Positions 9,097-23,943 of a DNA stretch of 64,000 bases are shown here, piece after piece (positions within the stretch are counted from its first letter, which is position 1; each line of letters begins with the position of its first letter). The stretch comes from Planctomycetota bacterium (GTDB taxonomy: Bacteria > Planctomycetota > Phycisphaerae > Phycisphaerales > UBA1924). A model generated the notes under the pieces. The model saw only the letters and a list, made by a program, of their open reading frames with translations. It searched no databases and had not been told where the DNA came from. The translations under genes and the position numbers were made by a program. The stretch lies in NCBI GenBank assembly GCA_033763975.1, contig JANRJM010000013.1:186001-250000 (forward strand), in the 5' to 3' direction.

Positions 9097-10632
9097 TTAC
9101 TCGCCCGGGTAGATCGCGTGCACGCGCAGGCCCTGGCCCTCGTACACGCGGCGGCGGGAGAGGATCGCGCGCTGGTTGATCCACGACGACACCACGACGT
9201 CGGTCGCGCCGGATTCGCCGGCGCGCTCGGGCGCCACGACGGGCACGCCCCAGAGCGTGCCGCCCTGCCTCGCGGGATCGTCGTCGATGAACGCGACGAT
9301 GCGCGTCGCGCCAGCCGGGGCGTGCGCGAGGGGCTCGAGCACGTGGCGCAGTTCGATGGTGTGGCGTCCCGTGCCGTGCACCGCCAGCGCGCGCCCCGAC
9401 AGACCGGCGAGCACCGCGCGCAGGCGCACCTCGCCCGCCGGCGGCACCGACCCGCCCCCGGCGCCGGCGAACGCGCACGGGCGCTCCGCGGGCCACGTGC
9501 GCGCCGGCCCCAACGCGACGTCGTCCAGCAGGCGTCCGACGGCGTCGGCCTGGCGATCAATCGCGAACGCGCCGCGCGCGCGTTCGAACGCGCCGGTGCG
9601 CAGTCGCGCGAGATCTCCCGCCGCACGCTCGATCCCCGAGGCCAACTGCTCCCCCACCGCCGCGATCGGCTGTTCGGGGCCCGCGTCGACGATCACGCCC
9701 GACACGCCGTCGTCGATGAGTTCGTCGCCCGAGTCGGTGCGGGTGACGACGGGCACGCAGCCGCGGCTCATGGCCTCGATCACCGCGAGCGACAGCCCCT
9801 CGAAGGTCGACGCGAGCAGCGCGACGTCCGCGTGCGCCAGCAGCCCGAGCACGCGGGCCGGGGGCTGCGCGTGCAGTCGCACGATCGCCGGCTTGCCCCG
9901 GATGGCGCGCTCGACGTCGGGCGTCGCGGGCCCGTCGCCGACGATCGCGAGCTCGTGCGAGAACCCGCGCCGCGTGAGCGCGTCGCTCGCCGCGACCAGC
10001 GCCAGCACGCGCTTGGGCGTGTGGTCCAGCCGCCCGGCGTAGACGAGGCGCAGCGGGCGCCCCGGGTACGCCGGGCGCACGGGGATGGCCCCGGGCATCT
10101 CGACCCCGTGCGGGATGCGGACGATGTCGCCCGCGCGGTCGGGCAGGCGCGAGGCGAGCGTGCGCTCCAAGGTGCGGCTCGCGGGCACGAAGCGCGAGAT
10201 GATCGGCGCGAAGTGCGCCTGCACGTGGTACTCGTACGGGATGTCGCTGTGGAGCCAGCCGACGATGCGGGCGGCGGGCTGGGCCTGCGCGGCGCGGGCG
10301 GCGATCGCGTAGCAGTCGCCCAGGAGATTCGGGCTGATCACGACGCCCCGCGCTTCGGCCGCGAGCGTCGCCGCGGCGTGCGCGTAGGGCGCGACGAACG
10401 CGTCGACCTCGCCCCCGGCGTCTTCGAGGGGCGGGCGATCGCGCAGGTCGGTGACGCGGATGCGCGGGTCCAGGTCGATCGCGAGCGGGGGGTGGCGCGC
10501 GGGCGAGGCGTGGAGGATGAGCCCGCACGGGCGTCCGCGGGCCACGAGCGCGCCCAGCAGGCGCACCGCCCACGACGCGACGCCGGACACGACCAACCCC
10601 GAGGGCAGCGCGACGAGGAAGGCGGCGGTCAT
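9097..10632 (-). CDS. Family 4 glycosyltransferase with C-terminal Rossmann-like domain
   Basis: 511 residues. The GT-B core occupies about 1-370: N-terminal SGLVVSGVASWAVRLLGALV, then the donor domain RLVYAGRLDHTPKR, ELAIVGDGP, LLAHADVALLASTFEGLSLA and IEAMSRGCVPVVTR, with the EGLSLAVIEAM element typical of GT4. After a linker, residues about 410-500 form an extra domain (ALAVHGTGRHTIELRHV, RIVAFIDDDPARQGG, GVPVVAPER, DVVVSSWIN). Its GxGxxx...DDDP..G layout resembles the C-terminal domain of sugar C-methyltransferases or the N-terminal domain of PglD. Four GT2 genes of the same island carry a similar tail. TACCGT lies five bases before the ATG. Sugar specificity is unknown. Confidence 0.85.
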   Translation of the reverse strand: MTAAFLVALPSGLVVSGVASWAVRLLGALVARGRPCGLILHASPARHPPLAIDLDPRIRVTDLRDRPPLEDAGGEVDAFVAPYAHAAATLAAEARGVVISPNLLGDCYAIAARAAQAQPAARIVGWLHSDIPYEYHVQAHFAPIISRFVPASRTLERTLASRLPDRAGDIVRIPHGVEMPGAIPVRPAYPGRPLRLVYAGRLDHTPKRVLALVAASDALTRRGFSHELAIVGDGPATPDVERAIRGKPAIVRLHAQPPARVLGLLAHADVALLASTFEGLSLAVIEAMSRGCVPVVTRTDSGDELIDDGVSGVIVDAGPEQPIAAVGEQLASGIERAAGDLARLRTGAFERARGAFAIDRQADAVGRLLDDVALGPARTWPAERPCAFAGAGGGSVPPAGEVRLRAVLAGLSGRALAVHGTGRHTIELRHVLEPLAHAPAGATRIVAFIDDDPARQGGTLWGVPVVAPERAGESGATDVVVSSWINQRAILSRRRVYEGQGLRVHAIYPGE

Positions 10633-10637
10633 GCCCG

Positions 10638-10643
10638 ACGGTA
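10638..10643 (-). promoter_or_regulatory. -10-like hexamer before the GT4 gene
   Basis: TACCGT on the minus strand, five bases before the ATG, no Shine-Dalgarno. It fits the TANNNT leaderless pattern; the gene is also only 27 bp downstream of the KdsC-like gene, so read-through is possible as well. Confidence 0.35.
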
Positions 10644-10659
10644 GCGCGGGGTGCCGCGG

Positions 10660-11199
10660 CTACTTCGACAGCGCGCCCAGGAACCAGTCGCAGATCTCGC
10701 GGACGGCCCCGTGCCCGCCCGGACGCGTGGTGATGAACTTCGCGGCGCGCCGGGCGGCGGGCCACGCGTCGGCCACGGCGATGGGCATGCCCACGGCGCG
10801 CATGCACGCCTCGTCGTTCACGTCGTTGCCCACGTACGCGACGCGCGCGAGCGCCAGGCCCAGGTCGCCGCAGCGCCGGCGGAGTTCGGTCACCTTGTCG
10901 TCCACGCCCTGCACGCAGTCCAGGCGGAGTTTGCGGCATCGGGCCGCGACCACCGGGTTGCGCTCCTTGCTCATCACGAGCATCGGCAGGCCGGCGTCGC
11001 GCAGCAGGCCGATGCCCAGCCCGTCGGAGCGGTTGCAGAACACGCCCTCGCGCCCGTCCTCCATCACCAGCACGCGGTTGTCGGTCATCACGCCGTCGAA
11101 GTCGAAGACCAGCAGCGCCACGCGGCGCAGCGCGGCCTTGGACGGCGCGGCCTTGGACGGCGGGGCCTTGGCCGGCGCCGAGCGGGGGCGCTTGCTCAC
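10660..11199 (-). CDS. HAD-IIIA phosphatase, KdsC-like (KDO 8-phosphate phosphatase family)
   Basis: 179 residues. The HAD core is plain: motif I LVFDFDGVMTDN near residue 35, LPMLVMSKERNPVVAARC (motif II region), a Lys in the DDKVTELRRR segment, and motif III VAYVGNDVNDEACM. C-cap-free tetrameric HADs of this type remove phosphate from 3-deoxy-manno-octulosonate 8-phosphate (KdsC) or from 9-carbon sialic-acid-like sugars. Within a glycan island either is plausible; kdsA, kdsB and sialic-acid genes are not in the window. An N-terminal Lys/Ala/Pro-rich leader of about 28 residues precedes the fold. The GTG start overlaps the stop of the preceding methyltransferase as GTGA, implying coupled translation. 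Confidence 0.85.
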   Translation of the reverse strand: MSKRPRSAPAKAPPSKAAPSKAALRRVALLVFDFDGVMTDNRVLVMEDGREGVFCNRSDGLGIGLLRDAGLPMLVMSKERNPVVAARCRKLRLDCVQGVDDKVTELRRRCGDLGLALARVAYVGNDVNDEACMRAVGMPIAVADAWPAARRAAKFITTRPGGHGAVREICDWFLGALSK

Positions 11200-11822
11200 G
11201 CCGCCCTCCGGGCGGCCTCGGCACTGCGCCAGGCCTCGCTGAAGAGCACGTCGGGCATGTTCTCGGTGCGGGTCACCTCGCGCATCGCCGGGTGCAGGCT
11301 CTTTCCACCCGCGGCGCGATAGACGCCCTCGAAGCCGGCGCGCTTCAGCAGGGCGGCGATGCTCTCGTCATCGGGCGCCCAGGCGCGCGGGCGTCCGTCG
11401 GCGCGGGGTGCGTATAGCCAGCGCGAGAGCCGCTCGGCCCACGTGCCGTCCTTGGTGGCGCGGGCCGCCGACGCGACGGCGAAGAAGTCAACCTCGCGAT
11501 CTGCCGCGGCGCGCAGCGCGGCGGGCATGTCGGGGAAGACGACGCGCACGAGCCCGCCCTCGAACGGGGCCGAGCCGTCCGCCGACTCGCGCAGCCCGCC
11601 GGGGCGCACGACGCGACGGACCTCGCGGAAGAAGGTCTCGCACTGCTCGGGCGAGAGGAACTCCACCACGTCGCGCACGTACACGCAGTCCACGACGCCG
11701 TCCGCCAGTGGCCACTCGCGCTCGCCCGGGTCCAGGCGCAGGTCGGCCCCGTCGAACGGCCCGACGGTGGACCACCCGCGCACGTCCAGTCCGGCACACC
11801 CTGACACGATCAGCCGCAGCAC
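11196..11822 (-). CDS. SAM-dependent methyltransferase-like protein (type 11)
   Basis: 208 residues from the GTG at 11822, chosen because GAGGAGATC lies a few bases upstream; an in-frame ATG at 11873 is an alternative. The fold is recognised from DLRLDPGEREWPLADGVVD, VYVRDVVEFLSPEQ and FFREVRRVVRPGG, which match motifs after the SAM-binding strand in class I methyltransferases. The glycine-rich motif I is weak (LIVSGCAGLDV), so cofactor binding is less certain. Proteins of this kind in surface-glycan clusters methylate sugars. It heads a short operon with the KdsC-like phosphatase, overlapping it by four bases. Confidence 0.7.
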   Translation of the reverse strand: MLRLIVSGCAGLDVRGWSTVGPFDGADLRLDPGEREWPLADGVVDCVYVRDVVEFLSPEQCETFFREVRRVVRPGGLRESADGSAPFEGGLVRVVFPDMPAALRAAADREVDFFAVASAARATKDGTWAERLSRWLYAPRADGRPRAWAPDDESIAALLKRAGFEGVYRAAGGKSLHPAMREVTRTENMPDVLFSEAWRSAEAARRAA

Positions 11823-11873
11823 GGTCGATCTCCTCGGAGCGCCCCCGCGCCCTCCCCGCCCCGCGAAGTACAT

Positions 11874-11893
11874 CGGCCCGCGCGTGCGGGCCG
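11874..11893. terminator. Perfect 8-bp hairpin in a 217-bp intergenic gap
   Basis: CGGCCCGC and GCGGGCCG flank a 4-base loop (GCGT). The gap 11823-12039 lies between the two-domain GT4 gene and the methyltransferase on the same strand. There is no T-run, so it is a candidate terminator or RNA processing site only. Nothing else recognisable is in the gap. Confidence 0.35.
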
Positions 11894-12039
11894 GCACAGT
11901 CGGCGGGGCGTGCACGCCCGCCCCCGTGCCAGCCGCGCCGGGCAGATCGCCCGCGCCGTCACGCGCCACCGTCGTGCCCGCGTCCGTTCCGGGTTCTCGC
12001 CGGTCGCCGGCGGGCTCCGAACGAAGCCCGCACACGTCG

Positions 12040-14169
12040 TCACACCTGGTACACGCGGTCGTCGAGCAGCAGCGCGAGGTACTTGTCGCACACCTCGTCG
12101 AGCGGCTCGGTCACGATCAGGTTGCGGTACACGTCGTAGTGCCGGCGGATGCGCTCCAACGCCGCGGGGATCTCCGACGGCCTGCGGAACGCCACGCCCC
12201 CGAGCCCGGCGAGCTCGGGGTGCCCGCCCGAATCCAGGTAGACCGCGGGCAGGCCGCAGGCGAGCCCCTCGATGAGCGCGTTCGAGCACGGGTCGTTGCG
12301 CGACGCGGTCAGATAGACGTCGTGCTCGCGCAGCAGATCGGCCAGACGCTCGGAGGGCTGGGGCTCGACGACGCGCACGCGTCGCATCGCGACGGGGCAG
12401 TTGCCCACGAACGTGACATCGAATCGCTCGAAGTCGAGGTTCCGGTCCAGCCATTCGTACACGGGCGCGCCCTTGCCGGGCGAGGGCGACCAACTGGTCG
12501 CGATGACGCGGAGGCGTTCGCCCGGGCGTCGCAGGCGCTCGGCGCGCCGGAAGATCGCGGGGTCGCAGGCATTAAGCACGAGCACGGGGTTCACGACGTC
12601 GAAGCCCAGGGCGGCGATGTTCGTGAGCGTGTGCCACGACTGGATGACCGTGGCGCTCGCGTAGCGGGCGTTGAAGTCGAAGCAGCGCCGGTCCTGTTCG
12701 AGCGATTCGGGCGTGCCGCGCAGCGTGCTGATGGGCCCGTCGATGCGGTGGACGACGCGGACGCTGCCGGGCTCGACGAGGCGTTCGAACGCGTCGATGG
12801 GGAACTGCACGGAGTTGACGATGTGCCCCGCGAAGTCGGACGCACGGAGCGCGGCCCCGGCGTCGCGGCCCTCGCCCGGGCTCTGCCCGTTCGCCGCCAC
12901 GCGCACGCCGCGGCGCTGCGCCGCGTGCATGAGCGCCATCATGAACTGGTTGCCCCCGCCCCAGGGCGGCGGGGTGAAGTTGTTCCAGAACGAGACGACG
13001 CCCTCGCGCCTCGGGGGCGCCACACGCGCGGGGGAACGCACCGACGCGGCCGACGTGATCGGCGACGGGGTCGATCTCGCCGCGGCCTCTCGCGCGGCGT
13101 TCGCGTACACCTCAACGAAGCGGAGCACGTTCGCGTCGGGCGTGTGGCGCGCACGGACGATCTCGCGGTGCGCGGGCGCGAACCGGGCGAGCGTTCCGCC
13201 CGCGTCCGGCGCGGACGCGCCGGCGCGAGACTCGATGTCCGCCTCGATCTTCTCGACCGCCTCGACGACGTCGGTGTACAGGCACTCGGGGCTCAGCACG
13301 TCGGGCGCCAGGCCCACGGGCGTGCTCAGCACCGGCACGCCCAGGGCCGACGCTTCGAGCACCGCGCGCGGGCCGCCTTCGGAGCGGCTCGTCACCAGGC
13401 ACAGGTCCGCTCCGCGGTAGAGCGCCAGGATCTTCGCCGCGGGCAGGATCGCGCCCGGGTAGTCGTCGTCGGGTGTTTCATGCCCCGCGAAGGCGTACGG
13501 CACGGCGCGCTCGCGCAGGCGCTCGCGCACCCAGTGTCGCCGGGGGCCCGCGAGCAGGGCGGCGACGTTCCGCCCGCGCCGGCGCAGTTCGGCGAGGATC
13601 TCGACGAACAGGTCGGGCCCTTTGACGAGCTTGGGGACCCAGTTGCCCACGCCCCCGCCGCGGTACCCCGGGCCGGCGGTGTCGCGGTGGAAGTTCGCGA
13701 TGACGTACGCGCCCTCGGGCAGGCGCGCCCGCACGCCGCTCGCCCAGGCGCTCGCCTGTGCATCGCCCGTCGCCTCGCCCCCCGGCGCGTGCAGCCACGC
13801 GGGGTCGATCGCGTAGGGCACGTACGCGCACGCGAGCCCGAGGGTGCGCAGTTTCTCGAGCGCGCCGCGCGACTGCGCGATCCAGGTCGTGACGCGGCGG
13901 ACGGCCCCGCGGAACCGCGGCTCGCTCAGCACGCGCGCCGGATCGCCCGCCATGTGGCACACCACCGCCCGCCCGCGCACCGCGTCGGCGGGCAGCGCCA
14001 TCAGCGGCTCCCACCAGCACGCGTGGATCACCTCCGCCTCGGGCGGCGTGGGCACGAGCGTCGCGACGCGCGCCAGGGCCATCGCGGTCAATCGCCGGTC
14101 CTCGTCCACCGCCCAGCCCGTGCCGTCGCCGGAACAGAGGTACACGCGCGTCGGCGGGGCGGCGCTCAT
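12040..14169 (-). CDS. Protein with two GT4 glycosyltransferase domains
   Basis: 709 residues. Two complete GT-B units are joined in one chain. Unit 1 (about 1-370) has PEGAYVIANFHRD, GPDLFVEILAELRRRG, GADLCLVTSRSEGGPRAVLE and ASALGVPVLSTP. Unit 2 (about 400-705) starts at VVSFWNNFTPPPWGGGNQF and has DGPISTLRGTPE, RVIATSWSPSPGKG, DVYLTASRNDPCSNALIEGL and ACGLPAVYLDSGGHPELAG. Each unit keeps the Glu-rich donor-binding E-x7-E type region. A Ser/Pro/Arg linker separates them. Fused pairs usually add two sugars in sequence or make a repeating unit. The start ATG overlaps the stop of the preceding methyltransferase as ATGA. The long in-frame extension upstream of 14169 runs antisense-like through that gene and is rejected. 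Confidence 0.85.
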   Translation of the reverse strand: MSAAPPTRVYLCSGDGTGWAVDEDRRLTAMALARVATLVPTPPEAEVIHACWWEPLMALPADAVRGRAVVCHMAGDPARVLSEPRFRGAVRRVTTWIAQSRGALEKLRTLGLACAYVPYAIDPAWLHAPGGEATGDAQASAWASGVRARLPEGAYVIANFHRDTAGPGYRGGGVGNWVPKLVKGPDLFVEILAELRRRGRNVAALLAGPRRHWVRERLRERAVPYAFAGHETPDDDYPGAILPAAKILALYRGADLCLVTSRSEGGPRAVLEASALGVPVLSTPVGLAPDVLSPECLYTDVVEAVEKIEADIESRAGASAPDAGGTLARFAPAHREIVRARHTPDANVLRFVEVYANAAREAAARSTPSPITSAASVRSPARVAPPRREGVVSFWNNFTPPPWGGGNQFMMALMHAAQRRGVRVAANGQSPGEGRDAGAALRASDFAGHIVNSVQFPIDAFERLVEPGSVRVVHRIDGPISTLRGTPESLEQDRRCFDFNARYASATVIQSWHTLTNIAALGFDVVNPVLVLNACDPAIFRRAERLRRPGERLRVIATSWSPSPGKGAPVYEWLDRNLDFERFDVTFVGNCPVAMRRVRVVEPQPSERLADLLREHDVYLTASRNDPCSNALIEGLACGLPAVYLDSGGHPELAGLGGVAFRRPSEIPAALERIRRHYDVYRNLIVTEPLDEVCDKYLALLLDDRVYQV

Positions 14170-14894
14170 GCGCGCACCGCCCGCACGCCGTAGCCGGTGG
14201 CGAAGCTCCGGTAGTACGGGTGCGCACGCTCGCCGAGTGATCGCTCGTGGGCGAGGGCGCGCTCGCGCACCCAGCGGACGAAGGGCATGGCGTGCGCCTC
14301 GACGCCCGGCCAGAACCCGTCGGTGTCGCGCAGGTGCAGGGCCCAGCCGCGCAGGAGTTCGGCGAGCACGCTGAAGAACATGCCCTGGGGCTCGACGGCG
14401 ATGTCGCCGAAGCCGCAGGCGCGCAGCGTGGTGGTCCACCAGTAAGGGGTGTAGCGCCCGACGTCGATGGGATCGTCGTGCACGCGGAACATGAACGGCG
14501 CGGTCGCCAGCAGTTCGCCCCCGGGGCGGAGCAGGCGGGCGGCCTCGCGCAGGGCCGCGACGGGATCGGGCAGGTGCTCGACCACCTCGCCCATGATGAC
14601 GGCGTCGGCCTGGGCGTCGGGCAGCGGGATGCAGGCCGCGTCAGCGACGACATCGGGCGACGCCGCCGCGCTCGTGTTGACGCGGATGGCGCGGACGTCG
14701 CAGGCGTCGAGGTCGAACTGCCCGCGCTTGCGTCCCTTGATGCCGCCGATGTCGACGACGCGGGCGCCCGGGGGCAAGCGCGCCACGCGGCGCGTGAAGA
14801 ACTCGTCGACGAAGTACCGCCGGACGGAGTACGCCAGGTCGTCGACGCGGGGGTCGACGGCCGGTGGTCGCGGGGTGCTCAGGGTCTGCGTCAT
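14166..14894 (-). CDS. Class I SAM-dependent methyltransferase
   Basis: 242 residues. Motif I is GARVVDIGGIKGRKRGQ, followed by VVADAACIPLPDAQADAVIM, GEVVEHLPDPVAALREAARL and LRPGGELLATAPFM, the standard order of a type 11 methyltransferase. The later segment DPIDVGRYTPYWWTTTLRAC is typical of methylases acting in sugar or O-antigen clusters. It is the middle member of an overlapping trio: its ATG shares bases with the upstream stop (TGATG) and its stop overlaps the start of the two-domain GT4 gene (ATGA), so the three are probably made together. Substrate unknown. Confidence 0.85.
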   Translation of the reverse strand: MTQTLSTPRPPAVDPRVDDLAYSVRRYFVDEFFTRRVARLPPGARVVDIGGIKGRKRGQFDLDACDVRAIRVNTSAAASPDVVADAACIPLPDAQADAVIMGEVVEHLPDPVAALREAARLLRPGGELLATAPFMFRVHDDPIDVGRYTPYWWTTTLRACGFGDIAVEPQGMFFSVLAELLRGWALHLRDTDGFWPGVEAHAMPFVRWVRERALAHERSLGERAHPYYRSFATGYGVRAVRA

Positions 14895-16258: not shown

Positions 16259-16343
16259 GACGTCCTCTCCGGGCGCGGCGTGCGCGCCCTCCGGACCGTC
16301 TGTATCGGTTGTGCCGACGGGGAGACTTGGGCGAAGGCGCGGG

Positions 16344-17582
16344 TTACGCGGAGACGCGCAGCGCGCTGCGCGAGGCGTGGGCCAGGGCCCGCTTGTGCAC
16401 CTCGGTCTCGACCTCCACGATCCGGGGCAGGCCGACCTCGTTGCGCACCGTGCGCGCCGCCGAGCAGCCCAGCATGTCGCGCCACTCGGCGTCGTTCAGC
16501 AGTTCCTCGATCGCCGTTGCGAGCGCCTGCGGGTCGGCGTCGACGCGCAGCCCGTTCATCCCGTGCGTCACGACCTCCGCCAGGCCCGGCGCCTTCACCA
16601 CCAGCACCGGCGCCCCGGCCGCCATGGCTTCCAGCACGGTCTTGGGGTGCCCTTCCAGTTCCGACGACTGGACGTACGCCGTGCACCGCGACATCCGCTC
16701 CACCAGTTCGCGGTGCGGGATGCGGCTGCGGAACCGGACCGGCGCGCCCAGTTCCTTCGCCAGCTTCTCGAGCGCGCCGCGCTGGTCGCCCTCGCCGATG
16801 ATCTCCAGCACCACGTTCCTGCGGCGTTCTTCGGGCAGCAGCGCCACCGCACGCACCAGCAAATCGACGTTCTTGCGTTTCGAGAGCTGCCCGGCGTACA
16901 GCAGCGTGCCCGGCTCGCGGTCCTCGCTCGCGCGGGGCTCCACGTCGAGCAGCACGTAGTTCGGCACCACCACGCAGCGCGACGGCTCCAGCCCGTACCG
17001 CCACGCCAGGTCGTCCACCATGTCGCCGGTCGTCCCGACGACGATGTCCGCGGCCTGGCACAGGGCGCGCTCGCGCTGGGCGGCCGACAGGGCCGCGGCG
17101 CTCTGCGGGCCGTGCTCGTGCGCGACGAACCGCGTCCAGAGATAGCCCCCGCGGGCGATCAGCCCCGCGGCGCACCCGCTGGCGCGCAGCGCCCGGGTGA
17201 TCTCCACCGCCGCCTCGCCGCCCTGCATCTGGTTCGTCTTCACCACCACCGACTCGCAGCCCGCGACCGCCGCCCGCACCCGCGCGGGCACCGTTCGGAG
17301 GTACTCCGCCGGCGACAGCCCGTCCTCGTTGCTCACGACCGTCAGTTTCGACGACTCCTCGGGCGTCAACTCCGGCTCCAGCGCCGCGCGGTCATCCCGC
17401 CCGCCGTAGGTCACCAGCACCAGCCGCCCGTACTGCGGCCCCAATGCTCGGTACAGCGCCCACTCGCGCTCCAGCATCCCCAGGTTCGCCCACGCGCGCA
17501 GTGACACCCCTTCCGTAAACACCAGCACCAGGCAGTCGGCGATCCCGCGGCCCATCTCCGCTTCTATCGGTCCGCCCGCCAT
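16344..17582 (-). CDS. Family 4 glycosyltransferase
   Basis: 412 residues. The N-terminal half (CLVLVFTEGVSLRAW, GRLVLVTYGGRDD, VVVKTNQMQGGEAAVEI) is the acceptor side. The C-terminal half is the donor side, with VVVPNYVLLDVEP, GTLLYAGQLSKRKNVDLLV, VVLEIIGEGDQRGALEKLA, SRCTAYVQSSELEGHPKTVL and AMAAGAPVLVV. The ELEGHPKTVLEAM element is the E-x7-E motif. The C-terminal Rossmann-like tail seen in other island members is absent. The ATG at 17582 gives the longest form; an ATG at 17553-17555 lies seven bases after GATAGA and may be the real start of a leaderless mRNA. It is divergent from the GT2 gene at 17719. Confidence 0.87.
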   Translation of the reverse strand: MAGGPIEAEMGRGIADCLVLVFTEGVSLRAWANLGMLEREWALYRALGPQYGRLVLVTYGGRDDRAALEPELTPEESSKLTVVSNEDGLSPAEYLRTVPARVRAAVAGCESVVVKTNQMQGGEAAVEITRALRASGCAAGLIARGGYLWTRFVAHEHGPQSAAALSAAQRERALCQAADIVVGTTGDMVDDLAWRYGLEPSRCVVVPNYVLLDVEPRASEDREPGTLLYAGQLSKRKNVDLLVRAVALLPEERRRNVVLEIIGEGDQRGALEKLAKELGAPVRFRSRIPHRELVERMSRCTAYVQSSELEGHPKTVLEAMAAGAPVLVVKAPGLAEVVTHGMNGLRVDADPQALATAIEELLNDAEWRDMLGCSAARTVRNEVGLPRIVEVETEVHKRALAHASRSALRVSA

Positions 17583-17718
17583 CTCAATCCACCAGAGTCA
17601 CCGGCACCCGACCACCCACTCGGGCGGGGGTACGACAGAACCGATCCCCCGCCGACGCGATTTGCGGGATGTGTTCGGGGCCGCACGTTCCGGCTGCGGC
17701 GGCCCGTCGGCCGATCTT

Positions 17719-19041
17719 GTGTGCGTGCCCGACCGCCCCGCCGTCGAGTTCGTCGTCCCCGCGTACAACGCCGCCGACACGCTGGCGGACACGCTGCGTT
17801 CGCTGGTCGCGCAATCCGAGCCGCGCTGGCGTGCGGTCGTGGTCGACGACGGCGGCCAGGACAACCCCGAGGCGGTGGTCGGCGAGATCAACGATCCGCG
17901 CATCCGGATCGAGCGTCGGACCAACGGCGGGCTTGCCGCCGCTCGCAACACGGGTTATCGGAGCACCACCGCGCCGGCGATCTGCTTCCTGGACGCCGAC
18001 GACCTGGTCGAACCGGATTTCGCGCGGCGGATGCTGGCGCGGCTGCGCGACGCCGACGCCGCCGCGTGCTGGTTTCGGTATGTCGGGCCAATGCTCGACG
18101 ATTTGGGCTGGACGTACCGCGTCGGGGAGCACGACCTGCACACCGATCGGCTGGCGGGCATGAACCCGCTGGGCGTCGGGGGCGTGGTGGTGCGGCGCGA
18201 CGCGCTGGACCGCGTGCGCGGCGGCGGGGCGGTGTTCGACGAATCGCTGCCGGTCGTTGAGGACTGGGACCTGTGGCTGCGCCTCGACGCCATCGGCGCC
18301 CGCTGGGCCATTGAGCCGGCGGCGCTGTTCGTCTGCCGCCTGCGGGCCCAGTCGCTCTCGGCGGGCGTCGAACGCATGTGGCGCGAGGGGCTGCGCGTGG
18401 TTCGCACCAGCGCCGCGGCGGCGGCGCGGCGTGCGGGGCTTGATGAACGCGCGCTCGAACGGCGCTGGCACCTTCGCCACCTCGCGCGGGGGGTAGCGGC
18501 CGACGACGCCGGGCTCGTGCGCGCCATCCGCGCCGAACTGGGGCCCCTGACCGCCGACGACGACGCGGAACTGGTGGGCGCGCTGCGCGAAGCGTTCTGC
18601 CGGCGGCACGCCGTGGGCGAGCACGACGCGGGGATGCGCGCGGCCGCGTGGCGGGCGACGATCGCGCGCTGCCTGCCCGATCGGCCCGCGCTCGCGCCGC
18701 GCGTGTCGTGGACGCCCGGGCGCTGGGCGACGATCGCGCGCCGGGCCGCGGCGGCGGTGCCGGCCGGGGGAACGCTCGTGATCTATGGGCTCGGGCTCAA
18801 CGGGCGGGCGGCGCTCGACGCGCTGGCCGATGGCCCCGTGCCGGTGGCGGCGATCGACGACCACCCGGGGGCGCACTGCCCGGTGCCGCGCCTCGGCGTG
18901 CACGACCTCACGTCGTCGCACCGCGTGCTCGTGACGCCCGACCGGCGCGAGACGATCGTGTCGCGTCTGCGCGAGGCGGGGATCGATCGCGTGCTGCTGC
19001 CCGAGATGTTCGAGGACGAACCGGCACGCCGCGCGTCGTGA
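17719..19041 (+). CDS. Family 2 glycosyltransferase with C-terminal Rossmann-like domain
   Basis: 440 residues from GTG at 17719 (GTG at 17725 is also possible; neither has a ribosome site). The GT-A domain shows FVVPAYNAADTLADTLRSLV, VVVDDGGQDNPEAV, GLAAARNTGY, CFLDADDLVEPDF and VVEDWDLWLRLDAIG, that is, the nucleotide-binding, D-x-D and catalytic ED elements. A helical middle section follows. Residues about 353-425 form a separate nucleotide-binding-like fold: TLVIYGLGLNGRAALDAL, VAAIDDHPGA, RVLVTPDRRETIV, RVLLPEMF. The layout matches the tails of three neighbouring GT2 genes and the GT4 at 9097. The tail may bind a nucleotide sugar or act as a non-catalytic regulator. Confidence 0.87.
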   Translation: MCVPDRPAVEFVVPAYNAADTLADTLRSLVAQSEPRWRAVVVDDGGQDNPEAVVGEINDPRIRIERRTNGGLAAARNTGYRSTTAPAICFLDADDLVEPDFARRMLARLRDADAAACWFRYVGPMLDDLGWTYRVGEHDLHTDRLAGMNPLGVGGVVVRRDALDRVRGGGAVFDESLPVVEDWDLWLRLDAIGARWAIEPAALFVCRLRAQSLSAGVERMWREGLRVVRTSAAAAARRAGLDERALERRWHLRHLARGVAADDAGLVRAIRAELGPLTADDDAELVGALREAFCRRHAVGEHDAGMRAAAWRATIARCLPDRPALAPRVSWTPGRWATIARRAAAAVPAGGTLVIYGLGLNGRAALDALADGPVPVAAIDDHPGAHCPVPRLGVHDLTSSHRVLVTPDRRETIVSRLREAGIDRVLLPEMFEDEPARRAS

Positions 19042-19050
19042 GCGCGGGAC

Positions 19051-20523
19051 CTAGGAGACGGCGTCGAGGAGCGTCGCGAGGCGGCCATCGATCGTCGCGG
19101 CGAGTTCGTCTCGCACGACGCGCCACCGGCGGAGGCGCAGGTCGCCCGCCCAGCGGGACGCGAGGCGTTCGTCGTCGAGCGGCGTGACGATGACGGCGCG
19201 CGTGTCGGGGCGGAGCGGATCCTTCGGGCGGAGTGAATCCTGGGGGCGCGAAGCACTGTGGTGGCTGAGCCCTTCTGGCCCCGAGGGTGGAAACGCGGGC
19301 GCGGAAGCCCCCGCCTGGGACGCGACAGCCGCGGAAGCCCCCGCGCCGGCGGGCAAACGATCGTCGTGGATGTCGACGTCGAGCCCGCGCGCTCGCGCCG
19401 CATCGACGAGCAGGCGCCCGTTCGTGCCATAGCCCGCGACGAGCACCGCGTCTGGCGGCTCGAGCCCGTGCAAGAGCGCGTCCATGATCGCCTCTGGCGC
19501 AACGAGCAGCGGCGCGAGGCACGCGGCGGCGTCGCGGGCGAAGCCCGGCGCGCCCCAGCCCGCACGTTCGCACGCGCGCCACCAGCGCAGCACCCCCGGC
19601 CACACCTCCCACGCCGACGCCGACGACTCGTGCACGGCGCGCACGAGCACCGGCGCCCACCGCGCAGCGTCGGCGGTGTGCGCGGGGGAGATCACCCCGG
19701 GGGCGTCGAGCGTCGGGTCGGCGCGCCACATGTCGACGGCGCGTTCGGGCGTGGCGTCGCCCGCCGCACGGAGCGTGCAGAACTCCAGCGCGGCGCGCGC
19801 GGGCGCACCGGCTCGCGCGGCGCGGCCGGCGGGCTCGAGCGCGAGCCGCTCGCGCGAGCGGGACAGGATCTCCCGCACCGCGCGCAGCATCCCCGCGACG
19901 TCGCTGCTGAGCCCCGCCGGCATGACGCGGTGGACCGACACGTCGGCGTCGACGGGCGTCCAGCGCAGCCCGCGGGCGGCGAGGCGCGACCAGAGGTCAA
20001 AGTCTTCGGCGGCGCGGCGCGCGGGGTCGAACTTCTCGGCGTCGTAGCGAGCGCGGCGCACAAGGTGCGAGCCCGTGCAGAGCGCGTTGCCGAGCGCGAG
20101 CCTGTGCTCGTCGACCACGCCGGGCCCGGCGGCGATGCGGTGCAGCGTGCGCCCGGCGGGGTCGCACAGCAGGGTCGCGCCGCACGCCGCGTCGCCCGCG
20201 CCCGCCCCGCCGAGCAGGCCTTCGAACCCGGCGGGCAGCAGCCAGTCGTCGGCGTCGAGAAAGTAAACGAACGCGCCCGAGGCCAGGCCGATCCCTTGGT
20301 TGCGGGCGATCGACGGGCCGGCGTTGGGCTGCGAGACCACGCGGATGCGCCGATCTCGGGCGGCGTACGCGCGGGCGAGCGCGCCCGTGCCGTCGGTCGA
20401 GCCGTCGTCCACGACGATCGCCTCCCACGCGGGGACGCTCTGCGCGAGCAGCGAGTCGAGCGCGCGGGCGAGCGTCGCCTCGGCGTTGAAGGCGGGGATG
20501 ATCGACGAGACGAGCGGGGTCAC
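19051..20523 (-). CDS. Family 2 glycosyltransferase with Rossmann-like tail and low-complexity insert
   Basis: 490 residues. GT-A core: SSIIPAFNAEATLARALDSL, VVDDGSTDGTGALARAY, GPSIARNQGIGLASGAFVY, FLDADDWLLPAG and AAEDFDLWSRLAARG. Residues about 354-480 are the Rossmann-like tail (AVLVAGYGTNGRLLVDAARA, VDIHDDRLPAG, AVIVTPLDDERLA). Between the DD strand and the VIVTP strand, residues about 388-438 are a Ser/Ala/Pro-rich and then RPxDxLRP-repeat insert missing from its relatives. The GTG start overlaps the stop of the preceding GT2 (GTGA). In-frame sequence upstream of 20523 belongs to that gene in another frame. It is the last of three tightly coupled GT2 genes. Confidence 0.87.
   Translation of the reverse strand: MTPLVSSIIPAFNAEATLARALDSLLAQSVPAWEAIVVDDGSTDGTGALARAYAARDRRIRVVSQPNAGPSIARNQGIGLASGAFVYFLDADDWLLPAGFEGLLGGAGAGDAACGATLLCDPAGRTLHRIAAGPGVVDEHRLALGNALCTGSHLVRRARYDAEKFDPARRAAEDFDLWSRLAARGLRWTPVDADVSVHRVMPAGLSSDVAGMLRAVREILSRSRERLALEPAGRAARAGAPARAALEFCTLRAAGDATPERAVDMWRADPTLDAPGVISPAHTADAARWAPVLVRAVHESSASAWEVWPGVLRWWRACERAGWGAPGFARDAAACLAPLLVAPEAIMDALLHGLEPPDAVLVAGYGTNGRLLVDAARARGLDVDIHDDRLPAGAGASAAVASQAGASAPAFPPSGPEGLSHHSASRPQDSLRPKDPLRPDTRAVIVTPLDDERLASRWAGDLRLRRWRVVRDELAATIDGRLATLLDAVS
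19301..19344. repeat. Two direct copies of a 14-bp GC-rich unit inside a GT2 gene
   Basis: GCGGAAGCCCCCGC occurs at 19301-19314 and 19331-19344, a 30-bp period, encoding AGASA twice on the minus strand. It lies in the in-frame low-complexity insert of the GT2 gene 19051-20523. Confidence 0.6.
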
Positions 20524-21938
20524 GCGGCGGCCTCTCGCGGGTCGCGCGACGCAACGGCCTCGCGCACGAGGGCCGCCAGCGCGTCGCGCCAGCGCGGCGC
20601 ACCCGGGAATCGCGGGGCCAGCGCCTCGTCGTGCAGGGGCGTCACGACCGGCGGCAGCCCCCACGGCGCGTCCATAGGCTCGGGCTCGACGCCCGGCGGG
20701 AGCGCGCCCAGCGCGCCGGGCGGACGGTCGTCTCGCACGCGCACGCGGAGCGAACGCTCAATGGCACGGGCGATCAGCGCGCGTCCGTTGCGCCCGCAGC
20801 CGACGACCGTGACGCCCGGGCCGGGCACGCGGTCGAGCAGGCGGTCGGCGATCGCGACCGGGTCGAGCAGTCGCGCGGCCGCCGCCCGGCGCGTGCCGCG
20901 TGGATCACGCAGCATGCCCGACGCGGCGCAGACGTCCCACCATCGCTCGGCAAGCGCCCACCACGCGGGCAGCCCGTCGGTCGGGCGAAGGAACGGGCGC
21001 TCGCACCGCCCGTACAGCACGCCCCAGTAGAGCGCCGCGGCGAACGCGTCCGGCTCGAGCGTGCCCGGCGCGAAGCCATCGTCGGGCGCCAGCCCGTCGC
21101 GCATCACGCCGAGCGCGAGACGCGCATCGCCCCCGGGCGCCACGGCGGCCATGGTCGCGTAGTCGAGCGCGAGACGCGCGAGCACGGCGCGTTCGCGCGC
21201 GGGAGAAGCGTCGCACGCGGGCCCCGGCGCGAGACGCGCCCGCGCGAAGCCGCCCCGCACCGACGATTGGCCCACGCGCAGCATCGCGCCGAAGTCGCGG
21301 CTCAGGCTGCGGGCGCGCAGGCGGTACCCCGCGACGAGCGCGGGCGTGCCGGCCCAGCGCACGCCGCGCGACGCGAGGCGCAGCCACAGGTCGTAGTCCT
21401 CGCCCACGCGGAGGCGCTCGTCGAAGCGGTCGTCGCCGAGGAGATCGCGCCGGAGCATGGTGGAATGCACGATGAACGGGTTGCCCGCGAGCAGTTCGTG
21501 TAGGCCGACGTCGTGGCGGGCCTCGTGGGGCGAGGCGTCGAGGAGCGTGGCACGCTCGTCGCGGAACTCGATCCCTCCGTACGCCGCCCCGGTGGCGCGG
21601 GGCGTGCGCTCGCAGGCGTCGACCAGCGCCGCCAGTGCGCCGGGGAGGGCGAGGTCGTCGGCGTCGAGGAAGTACACGTAGCGCCCGCGGCAGCGCGGGA
21701 GGCCGGCGTTGCGCGCCCCCGCGAGCCCGCGGTTGGCCTGGTGCACGAGCTCGAGGCGGGCGTCGTCCTGCGCGAGGGCGCGGACGAGCGCCGGGCCGTC
21801 GTCGGTCGAGCCGTCGTCAACGACGATGCAGTGCCAGTCGCGCAGCGACTGGGCGCGCAGCGACGCAAGCGTGTCTCGCACGGTGGACGCGCTGTTGAAC
21901 AGCGGGACGACGACGCTGACGAGCGGGGGCGGGGTCAT
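20520..21938 (-). CDS. Family 2 glycosyltransferase with C-terminal Rossmann-like domain
   Basis: 472 residues. GT-A core: SVVVPLFNSASTVRDTLASL, VVDDGSTDDGPALVRAL, GLAGARNAGLPRCRGRYVY, FLDADDLALPGAL and VGEDYDLWLRLASRG. The tail begins near residue 372 with GVTVVGCGRNGRALIARAI, RVRDDRPPGAL and PPVVTPLHDEALAP. The spacer inside the tail is Pro-rich (GALPPGVEPEPMDAPWG) where the downstream relative has its repeat insert. Start ATG overlaps the stop of the preceding GT2 as ATGA, and its own stop overlaps the next start as GTGA. The three GT2 proteins are therefore probably made in fixed ratio and may build consecutive linkages of one glycan. Confidence 0.88.
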   Translation of the reverse strand: MTPPPLVSVVVPLFNSASTVRDTLASLRAQSLRDWHCIVVDDGSTDDGPALVRALAQDDARLELVHQANRGLAGARNAGLPRCRGRYVYFLDADDLALPGALAALVDACERTPRATGAAYGGIEFRDERATLLDASPHEARHDVGLHELLAGNPFIVHSTMLRRDLLGDDRFDERLRVGEDYDLWLRLASRGVRWAGTPALVAGYRLRARSLSRDFGAMLRVGQSSVRGGFARARLAPGPACDASPARERAVLARLALDYATMAAVAPGGDARLALGVMRDGLAPDDGFAPGTLEPDAFAAALYWGVLYGRCERPFLRPTDGLPAWWALAERWWDVCAASGMLRDPRGTRRAAAARLLDPVAIADRLLDRVPGPGVTVVGCGRNGRALIARAIERSLRVRVRDDRPPGALGALPPGVEPEPMDAPWGLPPVVTPLHDEALAPRFPGAPRWRDALAALVREAVASRDPREAAA

Positions 21939-23167
21939 CGGGCGGCCTCCGCGCGCGGGCCGCGGACGGGCGCGAGCCGCCAGACATGCACGCCCCGCGC
22001 GCGGTGGGGCTCGCTCGCGCGCCAGATGGCGTCCGCGAACCGCTCGCTGGCGATGAGCACGTGCGCGCCGGGGGCGAGCGAGTCGGGGCGCGAGACGCGC
22101 AGGCCGTGCCGGGTGGTGTCGGGCGGGGCGTCGTCGACGATGGCGGCGATGGGCAGGGCGAGGTCGTGCTGGCGATCGATGATCCACGCGGCGCCGGCGC
22201 CCGCGCCCCACAGGGTGACCTCGCGCGCGCCCGCGTCGCGCATGTGCCGCCCGACGTCGCGCAGGCACGCGACGCGTCCGGCGTCGGCGGCGTGGTGCAG
22301 GGCGCCCGCGCGGCGCCAGTGCGCGAGCAGGTACGCGTGGATCCCCTCGCGGGACGGGCCGTCCCGTGTCAGGAGCGCGCCGATGGCGTCGGGGTCGGGC
22401 GCGTTCGCGGCGATCTGGCGGGCGAGCGCGTCGCGCAGGGCGCGCCGGGCCTGGGGGTCGGGGGCGTCGGGCAGGAAGGCGAGCGCGTCGAGCGGGGCGC
22501 CGGCCGCGACGGCCGCCTGCGCGGCGCAGTTAGCGCTGGGCGCGTCCGCGTCGCGCACGCGGTAGGTGTACAGCACGTCGGGCAGGTTCGCGAGGTCGGC
22601 GGCGCGGGCGAGGCGCAGCCAGAGGTCGTAGTCCTGCGCCCGGGTGCAGCGCTCGTCGTACCCGCCGACTGCCAGGACGGCGTCGCGGCGCAGCATCATC
22701 GAGCCGTGGCAGAAGACGTTCTCGAGCAGCAGGCGCCAGCGGGTCTCGCGCGGGTCGGTCGGGGGCAGGACGCGGTCGATGCGCGCGCCGTCGGGCCCGA
22801 CGCGTTCGTACGCCGTGCCCAGCGCCGCGAGGTTCGGCGCGGCGTGCATCGCGGCGGCCTGTCGCGCGAGGCGGTCGGGCGGGCAGCGGTCGTCGGCGTC
22901 CATGCGCGCGACGAGCGCGTGCCGGGCGCGGCGGAGGGCCTCGTTGAGCCCGGCGGCGAGGTTGGCGCCGGGCAACTCGATGACCCGGGCGCGCGGGTCG
23001 CTCCCCGCGAGGTCGCGGGCGGTGCGGGCGGTGGGGGCGTCGGCGCCGTTGAGGACGAGCAGGATCTCGAGATCGACGTCGCGCTGCGCGGCGATGCACG
23101 CGAAGGCCTCGGCGAGGCCGCCGTCGTCGCGGTGAACCGGGAGCGCTACCGACACGCCTGGAGTCAT
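21935..23167 (-). CDS. Family 2 glycosyltransferase with C-terminal Rossmann-like domain
   Basis: 410 residues, first of three overlapping GT2 genes. GT-A core: SVALPVHRDDGGLAEAFACI, LLVLNGADAPTARTARDLA, ANLAAGLNEALRRARHALV, RMDADDRCPPDRL and RAQDYDLWLRLARA. The tail, about residues 316-400, reads EVTLWGAGAGAAWIID, IAAIVDDAPPDTTRHGL, HVLIASERFADAIW, with the clearest GxGxxx motif of the set. GATAAG lies eight bases before the ATG, with no Shine-Dalgarno, consistent with a leaderless start. The divergent methyltransferase begins 86 bp away. Confidence 0.88.
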   Translation of the reverse strand: MTPGVSVALPVHRDDGGLAEAFACIAAQRDVDLEILLVLNGADAPTARTARDLAGSDPRARVIELPGANLAAGLNEALRRARHALVARMDADDRCPPDRLARQAAAMHAAPNLAALGTAYERVGPDGARIDRVLPPTDPRETRWRLLLENVFCHGSMMLRRDAVLAVGGYDERCTRAQDYDLWLRLARAADLANLPDVLYTYRVRDADAPSANCAAQAAVAAGAPLDALAFLPDAPDPQARRALRDALARQIAANAPDPDAIGALLTRDGPSREGIHAYLLAHWRRAGALHHAADAGRVACLRDVGRHMRDAGAREVTLWGAGAGAAWIIDRQHDLALPIAAIVDDAPPDTTRHGLRVSRPDSLAPGAHVLIASERFADAIWRASEPHRARGVHVWRLAPVRGPRAEAAR

Positions 23168-23253: not shown

Positions 23254-23943
23254 ATGACGACCCTGGCCACAGCGAGCACGACCGGTCCCGCGGCCTCCAC
23301 GGGCACGCCGACGGGCGAGCCCCGGTACGCGACGGCGTACCGCTACACCGACCGCGAGACCAAGGCGCGGTACATCGCGGAGAAGTACGCCCCGATCCTG
23401 CACGGGAGCGTGCTCGACGTCGGGTGCGACAAGGCGCCGCTGCGGGCGCTGGTCGCGAGCCCGTCCCGCTACACGGGCGTCGACATGGCGCCGGGGTCGG
23501 ACATCGTGCTGAACCTGGACGCGAGCCCGCTGCCCCTCGCAAACCGGTCGTACGACACGGTGGTGTGCACGGACGTGCTGGAGCACCTGGAGCGCTGTCA
23601 CGGGGTGTTCGACGAGCTCTGCCGCGTCGCGAACGGGCACGTGGTCGTCTCGCTCCCGAACCCCGTGCGCTGCCTGCTGGACGCGCTGCGCGACGGGGCG
23701 AAGGGGCGGCTGAAGTACTACGGGCTGCCGTCGCAGCCGCCGCCCGACCGGCACCGCTGGTTCTTCGGCGCGGAGGACGCGCGGGCGTTCGTCGAGACCG
23801 GGGCCGCCCGCAACGGGTTCGACGTCGAGCAGATGGACTTTGAGAGCGTGGGCAATCTGTCGTGGATCGTCAACGGGACGGACGTGATGGACTCGCTGAA
23901 CCTGCGCCTGGGCACGATGTGGGCGGTGCTCCGCCGGGCGTAG
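23254..23943 (+). CDS. Class I SAM-dependent methyltransferase
   Basis: 229 residues, ATG preceded by GGAGGACCC. Motifs: GSVLDVGCDKAPLRALV (motif I), YTGVDMAPGSDIVLNLD, SYDTVVCTDVLEHLERCH, NGHVVVSLPNPVRCLLDALR. The segment RLKYYGLPSQPPPDRHRWFF is like those of methylases in O-antigen clusters. No membrane segment. It stands between divergent GT2 genes and a convergent CgeB-like gene, whose 3' end overlaps its own by 74 bp. The substrate is probably a sugar or lipid-linked glycan, inferred from context only. Confidence 0.85.
   Translation: MTTLATASTTGPAASTGTPTGEPRYATAYRYTDRETKARYIAEKYAPILHGSVLDVGCDKAPLRALVASPSRYTGVDMAPGSDIVLNLDASPLPLANRSYDTVVCTDVLEHLERCHGVFDELCRVANGHVVVSLPNPVRCLLDALRDGAKGRLKYYGLPSQPPPDRHRWFFGAEDARAFVETGAARNGFDVEQMDFESVGNLSWIVNGTDVMDSLNLRLGTMWAVLRRA

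Follow-up and report, generated by a model that had tools for sequence, protein, structure and literature searches.

The N-terminal domain of the PglD-type acetyltransferase Pcryo_0637 is a platform for UDP. In the binding-site description given for this enzyme, the uracil is held by Asp41 and its amide, and the ribose is held by Asp40 and Ser11. The phosphates are held by the amides of Cys13 and Ala75. The equivalents named for PglD are Ser13, His15, Asp35, and Asp36 (PMC8040287).

Five glycosyltransferases encoded in a planctomycete gene island are homologous in their last part, a shared module of about 95 residues. The window analyzed here is the whole stretch of 64,000 nt at positions 186,001 to 250,000 of contig JANRJM010000013.1 (Planctomycetota bacterium GCA_033763975.1). 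The kind of domain is known, and its use on these sugar-transferring enzymes seems to be undescribed. A limited search of openly licensed papers found none on this tail on glycosyltransferases.

Glycosyltransferase genes and their tails

All five glycosyltransferase genes (A to E) are real. B is on the forward strand, and A, C, D, and E are on the reverse strand. The initial annotation had the five gene coordinates right but gave no strands. The genes, their tails, and the crevice elements of B are as follows.

9097..10632, reverse strand: A, GT4 (GT-B) glycosyltransferase with a C-terminal Rossmann tail (PF13692, E = 1.3e-19)
9100..9435, reverse strand: tail of A, residues 400 to 511 or, with a tighter boundary, 404 to 511, GTGRHT ... 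IDDDP ... VVVSS
17719..19041, forward strand: B, GT2 glycosyltransferase, then a helical linker, then a Rossmann tail (PF00535, E = 7.2e-29)
18724..19038, forward strand: tail of B, residues 336 to 440, GLGLNG ... IDDHP ... VLVTP (AlphaFold)
18787..18804, forward strand: crevice loop 1 of B, residues 357 to 362, GLGLNG, with the H/N position at 361 (from conservation at tail positions 23, 25, and 27)
18856..18861, forward strand: crevice DD of B, residues 380 and 381 (from conservation and alignment)
19051..20523, reverse strand: C, GT2 with a divergent tail (PF00535, E = 1.6e-32; tail from the B-seeded search)
19054..19512, reverse strand: tail of C, residues 338 to 490, with a low-complexity insert inside
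20520..21938, reverse strand: D, GT2 with a divergent tail (PF00535, E = 4e-32)
20523..20873, reverse strand: tail of D, residues 356 to 472
21935..23167, reverse strand: E, GT2 with a tail, start at 23167 or 23155 (PF00535, E = 8.8e-21)
21938..22276, reverse strand: tail of E, residues 294 to 406 numbered from the 23155 start, GAGAGA ... VDDAP ... VLIAS

The C and D genes overlap by 4 bases, as do the D and E genes. Relatives of E of near full length occur in other genomes. The catalytic part of B, C, D, and E is GT2 (Pfam PF00535, E values from 1.6e-32 to 8.8e-21, over the cutoff). That of A is GT4 (PF13692, 1.3e-19, 71.3 bits; PF00534, 4.3e-13, 49.6 bits; both over the cutoff). The acidic DXD-type motif of GT2 (D92, D94, D95, and D182 in B numbering) is invariant in 30 aligned proteins, including B to E. 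A contains an E-x7-E motif, identified by eye in the sequence. In each of the five proteins, the tail follows the GT2 or GT4 domain and is the last domain. Pfam detected no dehydrogenase domain and no methyltransferase domain in A to E.

The loop, the DD element, and the VTP/IAS strand listed in the initial annotation are present. Neither A (GTGRHT) nor E (GAGAGA) has the third Gly of its GxGxxG motif. In C, DD is separated from VTP by an inserted low-complexity stretch of about 45 residues. The H/N position of the loop is H in A, N in B, C, and D, and neither in E.

Homology of the tails

Iterated profile searches converged. The search seeded with B (GT2) gathered 134 of 756 proteins, and the search seeded with A (GT4) gathered 124, which lie wholly within the 134. 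L053:1-783, a Gfo/Idh-type protein in the B-seeded set, is a non-tail enzyme and was dropped before the count of 133 tails. E values from iterated models concern members already in the model. The clean tests are models built without the GT2 tails or without the GT4 tails, and the proteins searched included 622 untailed and 756 shuffled ones. Omission of all 41 GT2 tails left a model of 92, which recovered E at 3.2e-14 and B at 8.3e-7; it retained tails of B's own clade from other genes. Omission of all 51 GT4 tails left a model of 82, which recovered A at 5.6e-15. Neither model matched any of the 756 shuffled proteins. The stricter model of 89 tails, without B's clade, recovered E at 1.1e-14 and B at 2.1e-4, and the best untailed protein reached 0.0023. 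The proposal that two unrelated transferase folds share a single homologous tail is supported.

The C and D tails were matched by neither the 92-tail nor the 89-tail model, both built without GT2 tails. They are linked to the module through other GT2 tails. The E tail reached only 0.016 in an earlier B-seeded search and was included after further relatives had been added. When the host genome is searched with a model of which they are part, the five island tails take ranks 1 to 5 (1.1e-30 to 7.6e-6). A protein that is a Gfo/Idh-type oxidoreductase by sequence follows at 1.4e-5, so C stands out there only narrowly.

Predicted fold and conserved crevice

The tail of B (residues 335 to 432) was predicted by AlphaFold to have a Rossmann fold (pLDDT 96.8, pTM 0.89). 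The full-length model of B (pLDDT 92.9, pTM 0.91) has helices at 217 to 345 and tail strands at 352 to 405. B is the sole tail modeled, and the tails of A, C, D, and E are connected to it by sequence. Foldseek returned no match to the B tail model at an E value of ≤0.001; TcaB9 was at rank 26 (E = 0.12). The best VIA-align match was an alcohol dehydrogenase (Z = 9.0), followed by RCK and Rex domains, which bind NAD or ADP. Z values from 9.0 downward were spread across many Rossmann families. PglD-type acetyltransferases were absent among the best 50 matches listed by Foldseek and VIA-align. The placement among nucleotide-sugar enzyme domains comes from sequence profiles, not from the fold search.

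Among 98 positions compared across 114 tails, conservation is highest at six: 27 (H/N), 46 (D), 47 (D), 25 (G), 23 (G), and 72 (S/T). All six are at the C-terminal ends of strands 1 to 3 and line the ligand crevice. The two DD positions are D in 98% and 96% of these tails (weighted). Mean relative entropy is 2.38 at 13 crevice positions versus 1.14 elsewhere. Six of the 12 most conserved positions are in the crevice, with a p of about 0.001 that is only a guide, since the 13 positions were picked from DSSP and general knowledge after the conservation had been seen.

The DD of B aligns with Asp40 and Asp41 of Pcryo_0637. By alignment, the two Asp residues and the H/N of the tails correspond to positions that contact UDP in PglD-type acetyltransferases. 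The tails have Gly where PglD has a serine touching ribose and phosphate, and this counts against a nucleotide ligand. A further argument against a nucleotide-binding tail is that the donor is already bound by the GT2 and GT4 domains themselves.

Our best reading, to which we assign a probability of about 0.5, is that the tail is a detached small Rossmann domain of nucleotide-sugar enzymes that most likely retains a nucleotide-binding crevice and acts as an accessory nucleotide(-sugar)-binding module on glycan-assembly enzymes. Direct support exists for the homology, the confident fold prediction, the crevice conservation, and the spread over unrelated catalytic domains. We infer the identity of the ligand, its binding, and its effect on catalysis. 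The loop after strand 1 would be turned to the phosphates. In DD, the first Asp would be on the ribose and the second on the base, perhaps uracil. The helical linker may fix the tail against the catalytic domain. The tail would bind an NDP-sugar that the island produces or consumes, or else the nucleotide released from it. The bound nucleotide(-sugar) could set the donor supply, specificity, or feedback of each carrier enzyme. If the tail binds a nucleotide sugar, it offers a testable clue to donor or precursor sensing and sharing in planctomycete surface-glycan clusters. It would also be a marker for uncharacterized glycan enzymes, such as the GT-A-like family.

Distribution of the module and other readings

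The carriers of the 133 tails are mostly glycan-type enzymes. They comprise GT4 and GT2 enzymes, methyltransferases (FkbM and others), SGNH-like hydrolases, and a GT-A-like family that is unclassified. As far as the B model and the sequence links to it reach, the tails are neither unrelated structures nor a mere part of the glycosyltransferase fold, either of which would have undone the initial annotation; the module is also on methyltransferases and SGNH-like proteins. The A tail belongs to a clade that comprises 35 GT4 tails (support 99). The C and D tails share one clade of 10 rows (support 97). The E tail is in a clade of 15 GT2 tails (support 99). This clade is nested in a larger one, which also includes tails of GT4, FkbM, and SGNH-like proteins, and is separate from B, C, and D.

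A restriction of the module to the island is not supported. Of the 73 genomes in the host family, 55 have the A tail (E ≤ 1e-5). GT2s with a similar tail are also present in other planctomycete families and in another phylum (that of genome G436). The genes were called with a simple caller, and long or internal cases may be miscalled (e.g., L056:5222-6901). Two small tail frames looked stand-alone, and only L054:9911-10225 remains so. The other, L076:9-335, begins right at the edge of its stretch, groups with GT4 tails, and is probably a cut gene.

The GT2 at 28320 to 29516 is a candidate for a sixth tail in the window. Its conserved C terminus is in register with the tails, but hhalign gives 5.6 to 12.5% (control with its own N terminus, 0.3 to 3.6%). 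In an orthologue, the better HMM match falls within the glycosyltransferase domain.

The common ligand or docking role of the tails in the initial proposal is putative. In a docking role, the tails would bind each other or one partner, so that transferases, methyltransferases, and hydrolases of the island form one assembly line, with the crevice conserved only to keep the fold. We consider this docking role less likely than the nucleotide(-sugar) reading. At least seven catalytic types carry the module, which is C-terminal in 125 of 133 tails and N-terminal in 4. Adjacent tail-bearing genes occur in runs of 2 to 4, in regions partly selected for several matches. The catalytic type switches 21 times on the tail tree, where the minimum possible is 10. 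Docking is opposed by the six most conserved positions, which are crevice residues. Mean column identity is only 24% across 114 tails, so no common binding face is evident. The predicted fixed placement of the B tail would suit a role in cis.

The nucleotide-sugar reading has a broader form that we consider rather unlikely. One NDP-sugar-binding domain would have been shuffled among transferases, methyltransferases, and hydrolases as a lineage-specific shared handle, with many of the enzymes in a single glycan island reading the same UDP-linked precursor. If this is true, glycans would be built and modified in a channeled or feedback-controlled way, and the tails would give glycan assembly lines a ligand-reading code in common.

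The tail could instead be a Rex- or RCK-like sensor of NAD(H) or ADP/ATP that couples glycan synthesis to the redox or energy state, which we think improbable. The structures matched best are Rossmann domains that bind NAD or ADP. The B-seeded profile admitted one Gfo/Idh NAD domain and, in the host genome, matches another. Such a sensor is compatible with GxG and with an Asp after strand 2; G, G, and the first D also fit NAD binding, which, with the unspecific fold search, counts against the nucleotide-sugar reading. However, nearly all tails have the second Asp, and H/N is common in the loop. Both are PglD-like and are not typical of NAD domains. The third Gly position is mostly Thr, and A to E have no dehydrogenase part.

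A structural remnant that merely stabilizes or dimerizes the enzymes and binds nothing is very unlikely, for although the C and D tails are strongly diverged and C has its long insert, both retain the G, G, D, and D that are conserved at 97 to 98% in 133 tails on unrelated enzymes.

Comparison with known systems

The 114-tail profile was compared with PDB sequences. The best match was 3nkl, a UDP-D-quinovosamine 4-dehydrogenase (7.3e-8), followed by a perosamine N-acetyltransferase (1.2e-4) and the sugar 3-C-methyltransferase 5t64 (2.3e-4, positions 4 to 106 of 110). Amine and diaminopimelate dehydrogenases were also matched, which counts against the nucleotide-sugar reading. At an E value of ≤0.1, the 114 tails matched NCBIfam NeuD_NnaD (63 tails; best, 1.2e-6), Pfam PglD_N (32 tails), and Methyltransf_14 (24 tails). 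These matches agree with the likeness first suggested, to the C-terminal domain of sugar C-methyltransferases and the N-terminal domain of PglD. Neither Pfam nor NCBIfam gave a model specific to the tail.

Single tails matched less. PglD_N did not match the five window tails (E ≤ 10, subject to HMMER filters), and TIGR03570 did not match full-length A, B, or E at E ≤ 1e-5. The only Pfam match to the five was Methyltransf_14 for A (E = 0.1). The B tail alone had no sensible relative in the PDB, the best being a lysozyme entry (0.0021), and three other single tails had none at E ≤ 0.1. A tblastn search of plasmids gave four weak matches, all annotated as nucleoside-diphosphate sugar epimerase/dehydratase.

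Profile-profile comparison by hhalign of 109 tails with NeuD gave 97%, with the DD and the H of the two profiles coinciding, versus ≤0.54% for column-shuffled controls (10 runs), in support of the nucleotide(-sugar) reading. Two results count against it: the 24 NG-type tails reached only 84% with NeuD, and the tails scored higher with the WbpM-like set than with NeuD, though the WbpM-like, C-methyltransferase, and outside-glycosyltransferase sets were chosen by the tail profile and are favored. NeuD versus C-methyltransferase gave 1.3%.

The N-terminal domain of NeuD/PglB/VioB/PglD (TIGR03570, PF17836) is like the tails as a group. It is a Rossmann domain with a GxGxH loop and DD after strand 2, and NeuD-type proteins of relatives read GGGGHA...DDDP. 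In that family, a left-handed beta-helix acetyltransferase follows the domain, whereas none follows the tails of A to E.

The C-terminal domain of sugar C-methyltransferases (PF08484; TcaB9, 5t64) is likewise a C-terminal Rossmann domain, and the profile match to 5t64 is near full length. The 24 of 114 tails that matched Methyltransf_14 (PF08484) at E ≤ 0.1 reached 1.7e-5 at best. The PF08484 score for window tail A was 12.8 bits, under the cutoff of 23.5. The typical C-methyltransferases printed have DR where the tails have DD.

A FkbM methyltransferase, 2py6, has a tail-like stretch at 43 to 108 of 409 residues (7.3e-4 and 2.4e-5). FkbM proteins of the window's relatives instead carry the tail C-terminally.

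WbpM-like/CoA_binding_3 domains (PF13727; 3nkl; WbaP 8t53) have GAG...DD as in the tails and gave the top profile-profile score, the WbpM-like proteins being assigned by size and motif rather than by Pfam. The proteins with such a domain have about 600 to 690 residues and carry it in their first half, whereas here it follows glycosyltransferases.

The GT2s of other planctomycete families and of the G436 phylum contain 332 to 411 residues and have a Rossmann unit at the end, as the window GT2s do. Four of nine have a GAGRRT/GAGRPT-type loop. None of the nine has DD, unlike the window tails, which counts against the nucleotide-sugar reading; they have DxD or similar instead.

Tail-bearing genes and gene island

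Five glycosyltransferase (GT) genes of one island end in a Rossmann-like module of about 95 residues (the tail). The module is genuine and homologous; as an accessory domain it belongs to a known kind and is used in an unusual way. All five were called real frames by coding bias.

A: 9097-10632, minus strand, GT4 enzyme
B: 17719-19041, plus strand (the only one of the five), GT2 enzyme
C: 19051-20523, minus strand, GT2 enzyme
D: 20520-21938, minus strand, GT2 enzyme
E: 21935-23155 or 21935-23167, minus strand, GT2 enzyme with two possible starts

The acidic motifs are intact in GT2 enzymes B to E. Four-base overlaps join E, D and C in an operon-like arrangement, and B and C are convergent. The host genome contains 3.27 Mb in 19 contigs. 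The two closest named relatives of B are from records labelled Planctomycetota and Phycisphaerales. Other products of the island are further GTs, methyltransferases, an HldE-like protein and a KdsC-like phosphatase, a context that would fit a surface glycan with heptose and perhaps Kdo. The protein encoded at 23870-26392 (minus strand) is large and gives weak GT and TPR signals; in 14 of 15 distinct loci from relatives (hand count) it is no more than one gene away from the orthologue of B. The window differs from most of these loci in having four genes between the two.

In the HldE-like protein (26505-28211, plus strand) the adenylyltransferase domain (33-173) precedes the kinase domain (203-541). 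The HldE model has the adenylyltransferase part last (322-472), so the domain order is swapped. A further GT2 (28320-29516, plus strand) has a C-terminus (GKN ... VIGTLSPGPMLDA ... APW) conserved in 12 aligned rows, which may be a degenerate sixth tail. A NeuD/PglB/VioB-type acetyltransferase gene was found elsewhere on the same host contig (G000:C13:359869-360453), and this family's cut-off was passed in 52 of 61 genomes searched.

Homology of the tails

The protein set held 756 proteins from the window and 92 loci, mostly relatives'. An iterated HMM search seeded with the B tail retrieved 134 of them. Seeding with the A tail retrieved 124, every one inside the 134. A Gfo/Idh-type oxidoreductase among the 134 was dropped, leaving 133 tails.

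The initial annotation had claimed one tail on two unrelated GT folds, and leave-class-out models bear this out. A model free of GT2 tails (92 tails) recovered E (3.2e-14) as well as B (8.3e-7), and one free of GT4 tails (82 tails) recovered A (5.6e-15). These models matched none of 756 shuffled proteins. The 92-tail model still held B-clade tails borne by other genes. A stricter model lacking these (89 tails) gave 1.1e-14 for E and 2.1e-4 for B, with the best untailed protein at 0.0023. This weaker direct link for B leaves the overall assessment as it was, because other lines tie B in. C and D were recovered by neither GT2-free model and are linked to the family only via other GT2 tails. Two tail groups, HT-type and NG-type, matched each other at 98% in hhalign.

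AlphaFold models cover B alone of the five proteins. Its tail, modeled with 114 tails, formed a Rossmann unit (pLDDT 96.8, pTM 0.89). In full-length B (pLDDT 92.9, pTM 0.91), helices at 217-345 link the GT domain to the tail. The high pTM suggests that the tail may be held in a fixed placement relative to the GT domain. The structural search was unspecific (alcohol dehydrogenase, Z 9.0; RCK, 8.9; Rex, 8.7; WbaP, 8.0).

Kind of Rossmann domain

The top match of a 114-tail profile to PDB sequences was 3nkl, named UDP-D-quinovosamine 4-dehydrogenase (7.3e-8). Among the best 60 of 172 matches, it was followed by perosamine N-acetyltransferase, sugar 3-C-methyltransferase (positions 4-106 of 110) and FkbM methyltransferase 2py6; an amine dehydrogenase, a diaminopimelate dehydrogenase and a designed protein were interspersed with these. 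Lower in rank were TcaB9, VioB and 4m98, a pilin glycosylation protein. Family models matched at E<=0.1 were NeuD_NnaD (63 of 114 tails), PglD_N (32) and Methyltransf_14 (24).

Profile-profile probabilities for the 109 HT-type tails were 99.3 with WbpM-like proteins, 99.0 with GT2 tails elsewhere, 98.7 with C-methyltransferases and 97.0 with NeuD. For the 24 NG-type tails they were 95.9, 96.6, 66.5 and 84.2. The first three sets were picked by a tail profile, which favours them. The NeuD set was selected by TIGR03570 and used 26 of 30 loci (two had no frame and two wrong-frame rows were dropped). Shuffled controls scored at most 0.54, and NeuD against C-methyltransferase only 1.3. The PDB and family-model matches uphold the proposed likeness to the sugar C-methyltransferase C-domain and PglD N-domain.

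Catalytic partners

Tail carriers by clustering of the attached part (Pfam run on representatives)
GT4: 51
GT2: 41
GT-A-like family (our label): 16
FkbM methyltransferase: 9
SGNH-like: 4
Methyltransf_11-type: 4
TylF-type: 2
Methyltransf_24 plus weak nucleotide-diphospho-sugar-transferase part: 2
Methyltransf_24-like: 1
Unknown: 1
Small frames: 2

Presence on methyltransferases, SGNH-like proteins and others speaks against the tail being simply part of the GT fold, one of the refutations named in the initial annotation. At least one member each of FkbM, TylF, Methyltransf_11 and Methyltransf_24 passed the Pfam cut-off. The SGNH representative (26.0 bits against 32.9), the nucleotide-transferase part and L046:15537 fell under it. 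The tail is C-terminal in 125 carriers, N-terminal in 4 and internal in 2; the other 2 are the small frames, one probably a gene cut at the stretch's edge. Of the window and 79 other loci, 80 places in all, 30 have at least two tails, a count biased by regions partly fetched for several matches.

The GT-A-like family (L125:10072-11262 and 15 relatives) was gathered by its tail. It has a GGDDM motif in 15 of 16 members, and its representative had no Pfam match at E<=0.5. Its genes often lie beside tail-bearing FkbM and SGNH-like genes.

In the tail tree, E groups with GT4, FkbM and SGNH-like tails in a large clade of 105 rows (support 97). Within it, the 15 GT2 tails of E's own clade (support 99) are separate from B as well as from C and D; therefore tails seem to have been gained or swapped by GT2s on more than one occasion. 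Catalytic type switches 21 times (minimum 10) on this tree, which has only 110 columns and 66 of 126 inner branches open.

Distribution

A search for the tail of gene A gave matches at E<=1e-5 in 55 of the 73 genomes in the window's family, against 1 of 48 genomes from the order's other families (hand counts). Across the phylum, a 38-tail profile had matches in 92 of 294 genomes at E<=1e-6. Outside the family 23 loci were opened (L151-L173), two without any matching gene. Pfam was run on 10 of the other 21, and the remainder were judged by size and motif. Pfam assigned GT2 (L151, L156, L158, L165, L173), methyltransferase (L153), winged helix (L157), C-methyltransferase (L164, L169) and CoA_binding_3 (L161). 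The search for tailed GTs in other planctomycetes, proposed in the initial annotation, thus found five GT2s among these 10, all without DD.

In the phylum of G436 (a genome from another phylum), 34 of 200 genomes matched at E<=1e-8. When 10 opened loci were run against Pfam, four showed GT2 (L196, L205, L209, L215) and three radical SAM, with single cases of FkbM, C-methyltransferase and CoA_binding_3. DD occurs in none of the nine GT2 tails from other planctomycete families and this phylum. Rossmann-tailed GT2s occur in both; therefore such a fusion is not unusual. What stands out in the window's family is a DD-bearing tail spread over many enzymes.

The winged-helix DNA-binding protein of another planctomycete (L157:1498-2136, minus strand), fused to a tail-like Rossmann domain, is possibly a regulator with the same module. 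The radical SAM enzymes of the G436 phylum carry an N-terminal tail-like domain (L197:1453-2715, L198:1450-3258, L202:1411-2745).

Putative ligand

The top six conserved tail positions are all at the crevice. The tail is most likely a nucleotide-sugar-binding module. Perosamine N-acetyltransferase acts on a GDP sugar, and in the alignment it has Ala at the second Asp position. Because of this, the second Asp of the tails, judged from sequence, leans towards a uridine-type ligand.

According to PMC8040287, the N-domain of Pcryo_0637 holds UDP: Asp41 contacts uracil, Asp40 and Ser11 contact the ribose, and the Cys13 and Ala75 amides bind the phosphates. The PglD equivalents given there are Ser13, His15, Asp35 and Asp36. 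The relatives' NeuD proteins read GGGGHA and DDDP. The tails resemble the NeuD/PglD N-domain in both Asp residues and mostly in the H/N position, but have Gly where serine stands.
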